This document shows, in pieces, positions 18,020-23,345 of a stretch of 64,000 nucleotides of DNA. The translations under genes were made by a program, and so were the position numbers. Numbering within the stretch: the first letter of the stretch is position 1; each line of letters starts with the position of its first letter. Source of the stretch: Kineococcus aurantiacus (GTDB lineage: Bacteria; Actinomycetota; Actinomycetes; Actinomycetales; Kineococcaceae); NCBI RefSeq assembly GCF_013409345.1, contig NZ_JACCBB010000001.1, forward strand, positions 2,418,001 through 2,482,000, written 5' to 3'. Under the pieces are notes generated by a model that saw only the letters and a program-made list of their open reading frames with translations, ran no database searches and was not told where the DNA came from.

Positions 18020-18294
18020 GCGACAGCGTCCCCACCGACCGCGACGAGCTCGAGAAGGACATCGCGGCGACCCGCGAGCGACTGGCGAGCACGGCCGACG
18101 CCCTCGCGGCCAAGGCCGACGTGAAGGCCCAGGCCCAGGCCAAGGCCGAGGATCTCAAGCAGACCGCCCAGCAGAAGGTCCACGACGTCAGCGACAGCGC
18201 CCCCGGGACCCCCAAGCAGCAGACCGGCGTCCTCGTCGGCGCCATCGTCGTCGCGACGGCCCTGGCCATCTGGCTCGTCGTCCGCAAGCGGTGA
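18016..18294 (+). CDS. DUF3618-family protein
   Basis: The 92-residue protein opens with the DUF3618 element ELEKDIAATRERLASTADAL, continues as an Ala/Lys/Gln-rich coiled region, and ends in one membrane helix (VLVGAIVVATALAIWLVV, about 72-89) with a positive tail. Its ATG overlaps the stop of the holin-X-like gene as ATGA, and the DUF4235 gene starts 4 bp later. It is probably a small tail-anchored envelope protein working with its two neighbours. Confidence 0.88.
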   Translation: MSDSVPTDRDELEKDIAATRERLASTADALAAKADVKAQAQAKAEDLKQTAQQKVHDVSDSAPGTPKQQTGVLVGAIVVATALAIWLVVRKR

Positions 18295-18623: not shown

Positions 18624-18646
18624 GCTTCGGGACGAAGAGGCCGCAG
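18624..18646 (+). repeat. Left copy of 23-bp imperfect direct repeat (att-like)
   Basis: This 23-bp segment (GCTTCGGGACGAAG then AGGCCGCAG) recurs at 23256-23278 with one mismatch (G to A at its eighth base). It coincides with the anticodon-arm part of a tRNA-Pro fragment, a classical integrase target. It marks the probable left edge of the island. Confidence 0.65.
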
Positions 18647-18670
18647 GTTCAAATCCTGTCACCCCGACCA
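18626..18670 (+). other. 3' fragment of tRNA-Pro (CGG)
   Basis: 45 bases correspond to the 3' half of an actinobacterial tRNA-Pro: the TTCGGGA anticodon loop (anticodon CGG), the 3' anticodon stem CGAAG, variable loop, a T-arm with TTCAAAT, the 3' acceptor strand CACCCCG, and ACCA. The D arm and the 5' acceptor strand (expected CGGGGTG) are absent upstream, so it cannot be a working tRNA. Such fragments arise at integration sites of mobile elements. Confidence 0.75.
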
Positions 18671-18682
18671 GCAAGACCGCAG

Positions 18683-18724
18683 GTCAGAGGCCCGGAACCG
18701 CGTGAGCGGGGCCGGGCCTCTGAC
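18683..18724 (+). terminator. Hairpin terminator behind the tRNA-Pro fragment
   Basis: Bases 18683-18695 pair perfectly with 18712-18724 (13 bp) around a 16-nt loop. The place, 13 bp after the CCA, is that expected for the native terminator of a tRNA gene, so the fragment seems to have kept its downstream flank. Confidence 0.7.
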
Positions 18725-18998
18725 GTTGTGAGTGACTGACTGCGTGGCTGTTATGCAGTGGAGCTTTCGGTTGGCTGTCGTCAGTCCACGTCGCGTACCT
18801 GCTTCATCTGCTTGTGTGGCACAGGACGGTCGGACGACGGGCCTCAAAATAGCCATGAGCAGGTCCGCAGAAGCAGTGACTATTTGGTACTCACCCGTTA
18901 CGCTGAGTAGACGAAGGTTGCCGGCTGAAAGATGACGTTATGCTGCGACAAGCCGTCAGTATGTTGAGCCATTCTCTGACCGTATAGGATCGATTCTA
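18725..18998. other. Island left spacer without recognisable gene
   Basis: Between the tRNA terminator and the RusA-like gene I see no convincing gene. Short open frames on both strands have no family features. The promoter of the RusA-like operon should lie in the AT-rich last 100 bases, but I cannot assign boxes with confidence. Confidence 0.5.
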
Positions 18999-19484
18999 GT
19001 GGCCACTGGCACGCCGGCTCCATTAAAAACCCCCCCGCTCCCGTGGGAGATATCAGTGCAGGGGCGGCCTACCTCACATCAAAGCAAAAACTCTACTGCG
19101 AGAGCTGCTTGGAAGGGGGCCGTTCAAAATGAAGCGGTTAAGAACTGGAACAACCAGGGTTGGCTAGTCATCACGATGCCCGTGCGTTTCACTATGGTGG
19201 TCTGCGATGCAGGAGTGAACGGAGATCTTGACAACAAAATCAAGAATACCTTAGACGGTTTGTGGGTTGGGCCACAAGATCCTTTAGCTGGTCAGTTACC
19301 GTTATACGATGATGATGCTGTTGAACAGATTGTTGTTGCTCGGCTCGACGTGGGGCAACAGTACAATCTGTCAAATGTTCCCCCTTTACTATACAAGACA
19401 TTTACTGCTGCTGCCTTGAATGGAAGCCCTGCGGTCTACTTGAGACTGGACTCGCCGACGCGGATGGGAAGTTTCTTGATATGA
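18999..19484 (+). CDS. RusA-like Holliday-junction resolvase family protein
   Basis: The 161-residue protein shows the RusA core. GDLDNKIKNTLDGL at residues 75-88 supplies the D-x-D-N and the K, and LYDDDAVEQI at 102-111 supplies the conserved YDD. The family cuts four-way DNA junctions and occurs in phages and islands. Codon use is much richer in A/T than in neighbouring chromosomal genes, so transfer is likely. The start is GTG at 18999 without a clear ribosome site. The stop overlaps the next gene's start as ATGA, so the two are coupled. Whether it cuts junctions or serves as a nuclease of a defence module cannot be told. Confidence 0.8.
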   Translation: MATGTPAPLKTPPLPWEISVQGRPTSHQSKNSTARAAWKGAVQNEAVKNWNNQGWLVITMPVRFTMVVCDAGVNGDLDNKIKNTLDGLWVGPQDPLAGQLPLYDDDAVEQIVVARLDVGQQYNLSNVPPLLYKTFTAAALNGSPAVYLRLDSPTRMGSFLI

Positions 19485-20137
19485 GCACCTCTTTCAACCA
19501 CGAACGTAGCACCGCCTCTGAGGTTGCCTTGGATCTGCAGAGAGAAGGATGGGCAGTAGTGGTTGAGCCGTCTCCCAAAGACTTGCCCCTAGGTTTGCAA
19601 AACTTTCATCCAGACCTTGTTGCTCGCAGGGGGGATGAAAACCTGATCATTGAGGTCAAAGGTGTGCAAGCAATACGACGCAATCCCGCATTGAAAGATC
19701 AGATTGATCAGATGTCTGCGGCAGTTGACCAATTGCCGAACTGGTCCTTTAGGCTTATGTGGCTCGGGGAAGAAGCGGAAAATACGCCGCTAGCTACTGC
19801 GCTGGATCGAGCAGAAAAAGCTGTAAGGATCTCGTCGATCAGCGTCGATGCCGGCCTATTACTAGTCTGGGCGGCGGTTGAGAGTGTTTTAACGAGAGCG
19901 GTAACTCAAGAAGATGCTTCTTTCAAAGATCGTCAACGCCCTCTGGTCGGCCCCCGTCTCTTGGAGAACGCATTTGACCTCGATTTGTTTGACAGTGAAA
20001 CCTACCTGACTTTGTCCAGGGCACTCAAAACGCGCTCCAGGATTGCTCATGGCGGCGAAAGTAAAGAGCTCACATCTGACCTCGTGGAGTGGTTGGCAGA
20101 ATGGGTCCGACGCTTCTCTATTCCTTCCAGTGGTTGA
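19481..20137 (+). CDS. PD-(D/E)XK nuclease-like protein with HEPN-like C-terminus
   Basis: The 218-residue protein has a compact restriction-endonuclease core in its first 80 residues: FHPDLVARR with Asp45, then LIIEVKG with Glu58 and Lys60, that is a PD-x(n)-E-x-K signature, and a preceding helix with Glu14. Residues about 120-205 are helical and end with RSRIAHGG (Arg185, His190), an Rx4H pattern like that of HEPN RNases. The HEPN reading is tentative. It is translationally coupled to the RusA-like gene by an ATGA overlap, and A/T-rich codons mark it as foreign. A two-nuclease module acting on invading nucleic acid is a reasonable but unproven idea. Confidence 0.7.
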   Translation: MSTSFNHERSTASEVALDLQREGWAVVVEPSPKDLPLGLQNFHPDLVARRGDENLIIEVKGVQAIRRNPALKDQIDQMSAAVDQLPNWSFRLMWLGEEAENTPLATALDRAEKAVRISSISVDAGLLLVWAAVESVLTRAVTQEDASFKDRQRPLVGPRLLENAFDLDLFDSETYLTLSRALKTRSRIAHGGESKELTSDLVEWLAEWVRRFSIPSSG

Positions 20138-20369
20138 GAATAAATCCGCAGTAGTTGCTCCTGGTGGCTGAGATCCTACAATGCCAGATCCCCATGCTTC
20201 TTTGTTCCATCGCGCTTTGGCTCCTGGCGTGTTGTTTTTTCTAGCTTCTCTAGAAGGCAGATTATTACACGAGCGTATCTACACTATTTAGTAGATCCAA
20301 CCCAAGTAAGCGCCGCTTAAAGAGGCGTACCTGCTTGCGCCTATTCTGTAATTGCTAGGTATTTTCAAA
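20138..20369. other. AT-rich spacer, no gene seen
   Basis: About 230 bases after the PD-(D/E)XK gene contain no supported gene on either strand and no strong hairpin. Composition is the most A/T-rich in the window. Confidence 0.5.
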
Positions 20370-20671
20370 GATCCGATCCATATTTCAGCACTGGGACATC
20401 CCTGGCGGCTACGTGGAGCCAGGAGGGCCCCCTTGCCGCTGTGCGCCGTGAGGTCGTCGAAGATCTGGGGACCGAGCTATCCATCGCTGGACTGTTGCTT
20501 GTCGACTGGGCACCTGCACCCAAGGAGGGCGACGAGATTGGTACCACCGCGTCCCACAACCTAGCCGCCATCGACGACCTGATGCCCGACCGTCGCGTTC
20601 GGGCCGCCCTGGACGCTGCCCCGGGTCGCAGCGAGCACTACGCCGAACACAGCACCAGCACGCTGGCCTGA
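20370..20671 (+). pseudogene. Broken Nudix hydrolase gene (frameshift, 5' and internal loss)
   Basis: In one frame the sequence reads QHWDIPGGYVEPG, and in the next frame PLAAVRREVVEDLG. Joined, they form a complete Nudix box (G-x5-E-x7-R-E-V-x-E-D-L-G). One base appears lost near 20422-20424, where EPGE-A-P would be expected. The 5' part is missing, and after LLLVDWAPAP the usual core strands are absent. The frame ends at 20671. Base composition is nearer to the host than to the flanking island genes. It is a pseudogene by sequence. Confidence 0.7.
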
Positions 20672-21050
20672 TTCGGGCGCCCAGCGCAAGGTTTGCCGGC
20701 ATCCGCGCCCCGTTATGAGAACTTTCTTTACTCCGTCAAGGCCGGCCGCTGCGCGACCGGCGCCCGGCTCGCGCCGCGCGTGCGGCGCAGGCGCCGTTCC
20801 CGGCGCGAGCCGGACCTAGTGACGAAATCGATTGGCTGAGCGGGTGGTACTAGGGGGCTCCCGCCCCCTGGACCCCCGGCCGCGCTGTACAGATCCGCGC
20901 ATCCGTCTGTAGGGGGCACCATTCGTTGCGCGGATCCGCACACCGCAGCGAGAAGGTGGCTCCGCTGGAGTACGCGCGGTGGGAATGATCGGTGTCCCTG
21001 CGGATAGTATTCATCTCGACTCAGCGAACTATGTAGTTGGTCACCTGCCC
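20672..21050. other. GC-rich spacer with three hairpins
   Basis: No gene is supported here. Three inverted repeats follow each other: 20764-20776 with 20801-20813 (13 bp perfect), GGGGGC-TCCC-GCCCCC at 20853-20868, and 20892-20901 with 20927-20936 (10 bp perfect). They lie between the Nudix remnant and the 3' end of the leftward two-gene unit, and may act as terminators or be relics of an element end. Confidence 0.6.
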
Positions 21051-22208
21051 TCAAGTGCTAGCGATGTCTGGGCGCACCTTGAAAGAATGCGCCGCCAGCA
21101 TGCGCAGTCGATTTCCAGATCTTTTCACCTGGCCGGACGCCGATACGAACAACCCGTCATTATGAGCATTGATTGCCAACCTATAGTCTTCGTCTGCTAC
21201 CGCAAGAGTCACGCGCCGCAACCGCTCGCTTTCATCATCTTCAAAAGTACCGGCAATTGTCACTTCACCGGGACCATCTGAAGCCTCTCGGTGCAGTCGC
21301 GTGACATTTCCAAGTATGGTGACGTCGTCTTGCAGTGCGCGCTCCCTAAGAATGCGCGCAGCCTCGGTCAAAACTTCAATATGCCGTTCTTCGAAGTGAA
21401 TTGCGGGAGAAGCAGGTAGTGGCCTCGCGGAAGACCAGCGCGTTTCCAGTCGGAACCCGGTGGCTGCACTGCCTATACGCGATAGAGCCTCAAGCGAGTT
21501 GGCTGTAAGCCCATCTGCGACTGCATGGTCGAAGGCCTGCAGGTCATCTCCATCTAGCAATTGTGTAGCCGCCTTGTGGGCCAATCGTGCGTCTTTGGCC
21601 ATGCGGTAGGAGGCGAGTCTTTCGAATGGGTCTTCTTCCGATGGCTCATTGCTCTCATGTAGGGCCAGCGTCTGCTGGCCGACCATAGGAGGCAGAGCAA
21701 CGGTGACAGGCAAGACGAAGCTCCCTGGGCGCGTTTGAGCGACCTCGACGGCGCCCAGGAAGGCGGTGGCTGCATCGGGTCGTCTCGTCGCCTGTACGGG
21801 TCGGAAGGTATCGCTGGCCTCCGTGGTCGCGCAGGCCAGCGCCCAAGCCCGGATTCCCTGCGCTGACTCGATGAGGTCAACGACGGGCAGTGAGGCGCTG
21901 CTTTGAGTTTGGAGAGAGACGTTATGAACGTCTTTATCCACGGACAGAATATCTGCAACTAGTTCGGGGAGGCTCGACTCTTCGAAGTCCGCTACCTGTT
22001 GCAGTACGTCGCGCAATTGCCCAAGGTACCCACGCATTCCTCGTCTCAGGGGAAGAAGCACGCTGGCATTATCTCCTTGGGAGAGGACGACTACATTGCC
22101 GTACCTCTCGGACGGCGTCCAGCCCTTCATCTGCAGCACTTGCCTTGCGCGGCTTGGTTCAATACTGCTGAGGTAGGCGTCGTCAATAAAGGACGCGGTC
22201 ATCGCCAT
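21051..22208 (-). CDS. Protein of unknown family, coupled to DUF4365 gene
   Basis: I do not recognise this 385-residue protein. It is soluble and acidic. The N-terminal half is mixed helical (SSIEPSRARQVLQMKGW, then LLPLRRGMRGYLGQLRDVL). The centre has the stretch DPFERLASYRMAKDARLAHK. The C-terminal 120 residues look like a beta-rich domain (DDVTILGNVTRLHRE, GEVTIAGTFEDDESE, RLRRVTLAVADEDY). Its ATG overlaps the end of the DUF4365 gene by 10 bp, and the GGAGG ribosome site lies inside that gene, so the two are made together, probably as a complex. Composition is intermediate and island-like. The pair is the best candidate for an undescribed system here. Confidence 0.75.
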   Translation of the reverse strand: MAMTASFIDDAYLSSIEPSRARQVLQMKGWTPSERYGNVVVLSQGDNASVLLPLRRGMRGYLGQLRDVLQQVADFEESSLPELVADILSVDKDVHNVSLQTQSSASLPVVDLIESAQGIRAWALACATTEASDTFRPVQATRRPDAATAFLGAVEVAQTRPGSFVLPVTVALPPMVGQQTLALHESNEPSEEDPFERLASYRMAKDARLAHKAATQLLDGDDLQAFDHAVADGLTANSLEALSRIGSAATGFRLETRWSSARPLPASPAIHFEERHIEVLTEAARILRERALQDDVTILGNVTRLHREASDGPGEVTIAGTFEDDESERLRRVTLAVADEDYRLAINAHNDGLFVSASGQVKRSGNRLRMLAAHSFKVRPDIAST

Positions 22209-22711
22209 TCCTCCACCTTTCGTGTGACAAGATTCTGCAAGGTCTCCGCGGACAGCGGATTGCTCAGCGGCACGTGAGCCGTTCGATATTTCGCACTATC
22301 GGCAACGGGTTCCTCGTTCATTAGCGAGACCCAGTATGCGAGATGATTGAGTTCGTAGTTCTCCTGGCGGAGCACCATGTACTCTTCAATATTTTTTGGC
22401 GTCTTGACAACAACAAGAATTCGCGGCACGGGAAACTCAATTCCCGGTTCTCCCACCAAGTCGTCATAATTTCTTGCCGGTAGTGAATAACTGATCGATT
22501 CATCAACAATGGAGGGCGCCGAATCGGACTTGATTTGCATATCGATTTGAGCGTGTCGGCGCCCATTTGGCGCTCGGCCGGGGTAATGCACGCTGAGGTC
22601 GGTGCCGTCGACGTCTAGATGCTTCTTGGACCAGGTAAGCCCCGCCGCGCAAGCCATCACCTGTATGAGCGCCTCGCCGTAGCTTCCTTGAGCTACGTTG
22701 TCGTTCAGCAC
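22199..22711 (-). CDS. DUF4365-family (PD-(D/E)XK-like) protein
   Basis: The 170-residue protein fits DUF4365, a family related to PD-(D/E)XK nucleases. GSYGEALIQVMACAAGL supplies the first helix with Glu13. DVDGTDLSVHY supplies Asp35/Asp38, and AQIDMQIKSDS supplies the metal/active strand with Asp57, Gln59 and Lys61 (a Q-x-K variant of E-x-K). The strand FPVPRILVVVKTP and the Trp in LAYWVSLMN are also family-like. It is first in a coupled two-gene unit with the unknown 385-residue protein. The GTG at 22711 overlaps the stop of a small upstream frame (GTGCTGA). A nuclease role, for example in defence, is inference. Confidence 0.78.
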   Translation of the reverse strand: MLNDNVAQGSYGEALIQVMACAAGLTWSKKHLDVDGTDLSVHYPGRAPNGRRHAQIDMQIKSDSAPSIVDESISYSLPARNYDDLVGEPGIEFPVPRILVVVKTPKNIEEYMVLRQENYELNHLAYWVSLMNEEPVADSAKYRTAHVPLSNPLSAETLQNLVTRKVEEWR

Positions 22712-22908
22712 GCGGCCAACCCCTCATGGTCAGGACCGATCTCCTCGGTGGGAGTCAACCTACGGGGATCCTCCGACGTCGCGTTGGACCCGAGCCCCGA
22801 GTGTCTATCGGTCACAAGACGCGCCTGAGCGACACTGCGACTCGCCGTCCCGAGTGCCGCTGAAGTCGTCCAGGCAATCTGGCGGGTCACGTCCAGCTGC
22901 GAGGCCAC
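22705..22908 (-). CDS. Possible small upstream gene of the DUF4365 unit
   Basis: A 67-codon frame from GTG 22908 ends with TGA overlapping the GTG of the DUF4365 gene (GTGCTGA). I see no known motif in it (VTRQIAWTTSAALGTASR in the first half, a Thr/Glu/Asp-rich second half). The tight overlap is the only argument that it is translated; it could also be a leader or chance frame. Confidence 0.25.
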   Translation of the reverse strand: MASQLDVTRQIAWTTSAALGTASRSVAQARLVTDRHSGLGSNATSEDPRRLTPTEEIGPDHEGLAAC

Positions 22909-22911
22909 CTA

Positions 22912-23255
22912 TAACCGCCATCGATGAGGGCGTATGCCGATGCACTCCTGCCATAGACAGCGCAGGCTGTCGGTGGCGTCCTGATGCTCATCGACATGAG
23001 CCTCCCGTGCCCGATGCATGCCAGTCACCCCGGCAATATGGAGGCGTCGAGGGTGCTTCGCAGCTTAGCGATAGGCATAGTGGAGACCGAGTCGAGGCCC
23101 TCACTTAGGGGCCGGCGGGGCTTCGCACGCTGCTGTCGTTGACGCACGAGCGAGTGTCTATCTGCGTGACAACGGACTCGGACGACTAGGGACGCCTATG
23201 GGTTGAGCTGGAGGCGGCAGTAGGGAAAACGAGACGGTCTGGGTGCTCCTGCGAA
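22912..23255. other. Island right spacer, no clear gene
   Basis: About 340 bases up to the right repeat show no supported gene. A 36-codon frame on the minus strand (ATG 23019 to 22909) exists but has no recognisable features. Composition rises toward that of the host. Confidence 0.45.
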
Positions 23256-23278
23256 GCTTCGGAACGAAGAGGCCGCAG
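23256..23278 (+). repeat. Right copy of 23-bp imperfect direct repeat (att-like)
   Basis: Matches the left copy at 18624-18646 in 22 of 23 positions. The following T-arm and acceptor part of the tRNA is not present here; a large hairpin repeat starts 7 bp later. It marks the likely right edge of the island. Confidence 0.6.
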
Positions 23279-23284
23279 CGCCGA

Positions 23285-23345
23285 GGTTCGGATCGTTGTG
23301 ACAACGCTGCCGATCATCGCGAGCGTTGTCACAACGATCCGAACC
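23285..23345. repeat. Long hairpin repeat, copy 1 (24-bp perfect arms)
   Basis: Bases 23285-23308 pair perfectly with 23322-23345 around a 13-nt loop. Each arm contains the smaller palindrome GTTGT-G-ACAAC. The element recurs near 54.4 kb with the same 18 inner arm bases. The loop there is the reverse complement of this one with a single change, so the second copy is inverted. It lies just after the LLM oxidoreductase stop and may end that transcript. Confidence 0.85.

Follow-up and report, generated by a model that had tools for sequence, protein, structure and literature searches.

Cis-mobilizable elements (CIMEs) hold cargo between attachment ends but lack genes for integrase and transfer. 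Actinomycete integrative and conjugative elements (AICEs) are defined by integrase, replication and transfer modules, and fragments with two or fewer of these are treated, among other things, as likely remnants in the accessible part of PMC3218068. We analysed a 64,000-nucleotide stretch of the Kineococcus aurantiacus genome (the window; G000:C1:2418001-2482000, from the 5.03-Mb, two-contig genome G000) by comparison with ten congeners (G001-G010), making 11 genomes together with its own. The island at window positions 18624-23278 is, with a probability of about 0.72, a decayed pSAM2-like AICE whose core has been deleted, lying at a secondary site and carrying two putative anti-phage nuclease modules. 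It shares with AICEs the paired attachment arms around a tRNA-derived core, and its sister elements carry integrase, RepSA and FtsK; it differs in lacking all three defining genes and in lying at a non-tRNA site. The island is CIME-like, since both ends are kept, with cargo between them, and mobility genes are absent; unlike for CIMEs, the genome holds no cognate integrase and mobilization in trans is putative. A decayed element of AICE type, ectopically placed and with defence-like cargo, is a known kind of element in an unusual state, and a vague 'nuclease island' thereby becomes part of a defined mobile-element family with defence cargo.

The sharp fall in GC content that an earlier note on this sequence had pointed out is real, 0.573 across 18624-23278 vs 0.755 and 0.760 in the flanking 10 kb on either side. 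A 23-nt direct repeat edges the island (18624-18646 and 23256-23278, 22/23 identical), again in agreement with the note. At up to three mismatches its pattern occurs at just these two places in the whole window, while 100 shuffles gave 0.01 places on average, and a chance origin was dismissed on that ground. The note had also placed the left copy inside a 45-nt 3' part of tRNA-Pro(CGG), which we recover at 18626-18670; the fragment begins in the anticodon loop and runs to CCA, and ARAGORN finds no complete tRNA there. The only open reading frames (ORFs) longer than 136 aa are four cargo genes, so the island indeed has no integrase of its own, nor is there an ORF for a RepSA-like initiator or an FtsK-like transfer protein. 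The PDC-M02B gene, the HEPN domain, the arms beyond the core and the backbone remnant near 20716-20903 had been overlooked. The features are as follows.

18624-18646, + strand: left copy of the 23-nt attachment core, from the repeat search
18626-18670, + strand: 3' part of tRNA-Pro(CGG), anticodon loop to CCA, CGAAG allele
18626-18751, + strand: left attachment arm (tRNA 3' half, terminator hairpin, two 8-nt repeats)
18999-19484, + strand: RusA-family endonuclease, 161 aa
19481-20137, + strand: AHJR-like PD-(D/E)XK plus HEPN protein, 218 aa, 4-nt overlap with the RusA gene
20716-20903, no strand: trace of the right edge of the element backbone, short collinear matches to sister elements
21051-22208, - strand: PDC-M02B, 385 aa, fold unknown, PADLOC PDLC04305
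22199-22711, - strand: PDC-M02A, DUF4365 PD-(D/E)XK nuclease, 170 aa, Pfam DUF4365, PADLOC PDLC04277
23123-23278, + strand: right attachment arm with one TGCGTGAC repeat at 23163-23170
23256-23278, + strand: right copy of the attachment core
23285-23345, no strand: chromosomal repeated hairpin immediately outside the insertion, where the right flank begins

Comparison with relatives that lack the insert, as the earlier note had proposed, confirms that 18624-23278 is a mobile insertion. In nine of the ten congeners, homologues of the left flank and of the right-hand monooxygenase gene stand side by side, 35-272 nt apart, without the island; the syntenic place was not found in the fragmented assembly of G002. 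The width of the gap differs among congeners, as the end of the left flank is not conserved in all of them: its match stops between window positions 18159 and 18615 across the nine. The tightest junctions are those of G001 (left match to 18615, right from 23348) and G005 (18609 and 23354). The PDC-M02B and AHJR-HEPN genes are absent from all ten congeners, and together with the nine empty sites this ruled out ordinary conserved chromosome.

The junctions of the nine empty loci contain neither a tRNA-Pro nor the attachment core at up to six edits, with a few loose matches to the core elsewhere. The tRNA fragment and the core therefore arrived with the insert. Hence two parts of the earlier proposal fall. 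An island at tRNA-Pro is contradicted by the nine sites without this tRNA and by the host's intact tRNA-Pro(CGG) at ~1.893 Mb, 543 kb away. A chromosome joined at the 23-bp repeat likewise fails, since the repeat is absent from the empty sites, an outcome that the note itself had named in advance as refuting; the insertion as such stands.

The tRNA fragment is not a broken host tRNA; it belongs to a family of pSAM2-type elements, whose left attachment end it forms. Elements of this family follow an intact tRNA-Pro(CGG) in G001, G003, G006, G008 and G009, with the displaced tRNA 3' half at the far end, on the same contig in G003, G006 and G008 and on another contig in G001; the far-end core of G009 is truncated. 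Left arms of the family consist of the tRNA 3' half, a terminator hairpin and two 8-nt repeats 12 nt apart (window 18729 and 18741), and that of the island is 93-96% identical to the others, G003 included, over 120-126 nt (G008, 96.0% over 126 nt; G001, 95.8% over 120 nt; G009 and G006, 93%). Past the terminator, the sequence diverges in the insert-free G004 and G010 and at G000's own tRNA. The right arm matches the right ends of G001 (79% over 161 nt, E 2.4e-29) and G003 (76% over 128 nt), and each of the seven aligned right ends has a TGCGTGAC-type repeat at a constant spacing. Moreover, the traces at 20716-20903 match, in order, DNA just outside the HD/Nudix-like genes at the right edge of the elements in G003 (49 nt at 86% and 60 nt at 82%), G008 (56 nt at 87.5%) and G009, and G001 matches one of the two pieces; these genes were named by eye, except the G003 NUDIX (Pfam).

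The family consists of defence-carrying AICEs at tRNA-Pro(CGG), their cargo variable and placed beside both ends. Phage_integrase, RepSA (516 bits) and FtsK domains were identified with Pfam in the G003 element, and integrase/RepSA/FtsK-like ORFs are visible in the ORF lists of those in G001, G008, G009 and G005. The cognate tyrosine integrase is present in 5 of the 11 genomes (G003 and, at 87-91% identity, G001, G005, G008 and G009), and the best match in G000 reaches 28-29% in a genome-wide search that covered tyrosine, not serine, integrases. Seven of ten cargo proteins scanned in sister elements match PADLOC models, including ThsB, ThsA-like and RmrA. The earlier note had left it that the island lost, or never had, an integrase; loss is the better option and the other less favoured, since both attachment arms of a complete family with integrase, and traces of that family's edge, are preserved in the island. 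Deletion of the element core (integrase, rep and tra) would have left the left cargo, RusA and AHJR-HEPN, and the right cargo, PDC-M02A/B, between the arms. Such a remnant would be mobile only if a related element supplied integrase, that is, cis-mobilizable.

In the full sister elements at L048, L052 and L055 (G003, G001 and G009, respectively), Thoeris ThsB, TIR, RmrA, PDC-S54 and PDC-M68B-like cargo lies near the ends. A 2.9-kb island in G006 (L050, 1173-4115) sits between an intact tRNA-Pro(CGG) and the displaced 3' half and carries a SIR2 (ThsA-like) gene and a YefM/YoeB-like pair, the latter named by eye; as it likewise has no cognate integrase, the integrase-less form is not unique to the window. 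G007 likewise has a right attachment end of this family, at ~18050-18071 of C22 within a low-GC composite region, with a tRNA-Lys (~29.5 kb) on the same contig.

The island lies at an ectopic, non-tRNA site. Its tRNA fragment has the CGAAG form of eight congeners, whereas the host's own allele is CGAGG. Indeed, of the ten genomes that yielded a tRNA-Pro(CGG), only G000 and G005 have the CCTCG/CGAGG anticodon stem, the other eight having CTTCG/CGAAG; no tRNA-Pro(CGG) was found in G007. G005 is the sister of G000 (tree support 97/99), and its element also occupies a non-tRNA site, adjoining a gene that we take to be phosphatase-like; the homologue of this gene lies at 4.55 Mb in G000, with no element seen adjoining. 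No right end of the G005 element was found, its contig ending first, and no further core turned up. The integrase match of this element contains one TGA, yet the ORF list has a continuous 475-aa ORF ending there, and we do not call this integrase broken. Entry into a secondary site may have come about because the tRNA-Pro stem of this lineage had changed. The link between the stem change and the off-tRNA position of both elements is suggestive only, because two sister genomes amount to one lineage and one change. The two sister species are nevertheless a natural case in which to ask if integrative elements can be evicted by a base-pair change in a tRNA.

The right-hand core has a further peculiarity. 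With a crossover in the anticodon loop, chromosome is expected after TTCGGNA; the observed sequence goes on as CGAAGAGGCCGCAG. Since the relatives' empty sites hold no such sequence, simple secondary-site integration fails to explain both ends. The right ends in G009 and G007 stop at GAGGCCG and are followed by unrelated DNA. The right-hand core may stem from a secondary attachment site whose right half is long, from a relic of older date or from a unit inserted core to core; in another strain of this species, an empty site carrying TTCGGAACGAAGAGGCCGCAG would support the secondary attachment site, and one without the core would support the core-to-core unit.

The left cargo is a RusA gene and an AHJR-HEPN gene. 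These two and DUF4365 were the three nuclease genes of the earlier note, and two of them are secured by Pfam in the window proteins themselves (DUF4365, E 2.4e-14; AHJR-like PD-(D/E)XK, E 1.1e-16). RusA holds through its relatives and structure, not for the window protein alone, which has no Pfam match and a PHROG match at E 0.24. Fourteen of the 15 members of the RusA alignment match Pfam RusA, and the predicted model of the window protein (pLDDT, a model confidence score, 80.2) gives six Foldseek matches at E <=0.001, all to E. coli RusA, so that a RusA fold is supported by modelling. The protein contains D76, D78, N79, K82, D86, D104 and D105; D104 is found in 20 of 21 loci and the other six residues in all 21. 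In the AHJR-HEPN protein D45, E58, K60 and R185-x4-H190 are present. Its HEPN domain matches HEPN_RiboL-PSP at E 0.2, and Pfam HepT-like is matched by 14 of 15 alignment members, not by the window protein. R185 and H190 of the R-x4-H motif are conserved in 21/21 loci, as is D45 of AHJR, with E58 in 17/21 and K60 in 14/21. The AHJR domain may therefore be more sensor than cutter, because its E-x-K pair is complete in 14/21 loci vs the invariant RusA and HEPN sites. At L159, L160 and L163 the E-x-K residues are replaced (Q and M or L) and the HEPN motif is intact.

The two genes occur together in all 21 true matches (the window, G400, five plasmid records and 14 genome contigs), overlapping by 1-16 nt, in Actinomycetota and Alphaproteobacteria. 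L153 entered through the RusA search and the other loci through AHJR-HEPN searches; L170, a 39-residue match without an AHJR or RusA hidden Markov model match, is left out of the count. RusA and AHJR-HEPN distances correlate with r 0.95, reached by 0 of 9999 permutations, which shows joint inheritance in a figure that still contains shared phylogeny. Beyond a weak match to CARF_PDDEXK (E 0.04; E 0.0079 for one alignment member), the window pair matches no PADLOC family. Defence neighbours of the pair are GajA/GajB (Gabija) at L156, dCTPase (dCTP deaminase) at L157 and AbiEii (AbiE) at L151. The neighbour scan took in 99 of 125 called neighbour ORFs and listed 25 of 123 matched families, and its matches to a CBASS cyclase, a 2TM effector and PD-T7 were not traced to a locus. 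A HATPase-type gene lies on the opposite strand beside the pair at L156 (6675-8603, Pfam), L151 (5753-7558, below cutoff) and L152 (4143-6077, by annotation only). The viral contigs scanned contain no relatives of either protein, and the phage records searched no match to AHJR-HEPN.

HEPN fused to an archaeal Holliday-junction-resolvase-like nuclease is noted in PMC3710099, and the window protein has this same domain fusion. What differs is the constant RusA partner, and 'RusA' does not occur in the accessible part of that paper. The pair differs from HEPN-MNT toxin-antitoxin systems in that the constant partner is RusA-like and not a nucleotidyltransferase antitoxin. No description of RusA paired with HEPN was found among the literature matches listed, in a search mostly outside subscription papers and preprints, and the pair appears to be new. 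Recognition of DNA that is branched or abnormal in some other way could fall to RusA and the AHJR domain, with the HEPN domain cutting RNA and so stopping the infected cell. As a tentative extension, we suggest a new two-gene anti-phage system in which the resolvase and the resolvase-like domain would act on branched phage DNA, sensing or cutting it, and allow HEPN to shut the cell down, on an element evicted by a compensatory tRNA stem change. Being small and strictly paired, the RusA/HEPN module is a directly clonable candidate for phage testing.

The right cargo, PDC-M02, is a PADLOC candidate defence system. PDC-M02B matches PDLC04305 over its full length with 903.4 bits, and PDC-M02A, which contains Q59-x-K61, matches PDLC04277 with 183 bits; both genes are present, adjacent as the PADLOC candidate requires, and overlapping, and the best B model fits the window protein almost as a self-match. 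With this candidate gene pair and the defence genes of the sister elements, the label of 'defence-type' island in the earlier note is likely to be right. PDC-M02B is matched in 49 of 394 genomes of the class (own included), many to the C-terminal part only. It has no Pfam family, and its profile yields one match in the PDB, a phosphatase at E 0.12; the single-sequence structure prediction (pLDDT 33.8) is unusable, and the viral contigs scanned hold no relatives. PDC-M02 is not described among the literature matches listed, nor does 'PDC' appear in the accessible part of the PADLOC web-server paper (PMC9252829). A short-Argonaute system uses DUF4365 as its DNase (PMC10810196). The window protein shares with this system, SPARDA (short Argonaute with DUF4365-APAZ), a DUF4365 nuclease with the Q-x-K motif, but no Argonaute or APAZ was seen beside it. 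Membership of SPARDA was rejected, PDC-M02B having neither a Pfam match nor a convincing PDB sequence match. PDC-M02 could instead be a DUF4365 DNase controlled by its partner PDC-M02B, and the island would then carry two independent nuclease modules for anti-phage defence.

Other origins for the island have to be set against a decayed AICE. An island might have entered a place that once held tRNA-Pro, the fragment being the host's displaced 3' half; in favour is the second copy of the core, 4.6 kb from the tRNA 3' half. This origin is very improbable given nine congeners without tRNA or core at the site, an intact host tRNA-Pro elsewhere with a different stem allele, and sequence past the tRNA end that runs into the element arm and not into chromosome. 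The island might otherwise be a mini-element without an integrase from the start, a cargo cassette of satellite-like or cis-mobilizable type that full elements have moved in trans throughout; the SIR2 island of G006 means that integrase-less forms occur at least twice. We consider this unlikely, as the backbone-edge traces between the two cargo blocks are expected from deletion and the cargo stands at both ends, as in full elements. Several points also weigh against the decayed AICE itself: the tRNA-allele link reflects one change, the right-hand core runs ~14 nt past the expected crossover, the backbone traces are short, and a Nudix-like fragment at ~20361-20670 was read by eye, with no Pfam match for its pieces.

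Defence as the role of the left cargo is contested too, ten further neighbour proteins of the pair having no PADLOC match and the tally of defence neighbours no control rate. The pair could be a DNA-repair or addiction module: RusA belongs to a Holliday-junction resolvase family, one copy of the pair lies near the DNA-repair genes LigD and ImuA on a Ti plasmid, and HEPN proteins are often toxins in toxin-antitoxin pairs, as stated in the accessible part of PMC3710099. Its patchy distribution (2 of the 394 genomes, own included), its location on plasmids and islands and the defence neighbours at three loci speak for phage defence, and leave a repair or addiction role possible but doubtful.

The hairpin at 23285-23345, just outside the right edge, is a ~60-nt palindrome with dozens of intergenic copies in the K. 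aurantiacus genome, and species-specific counterparts stand at the same place in G001 and G005.

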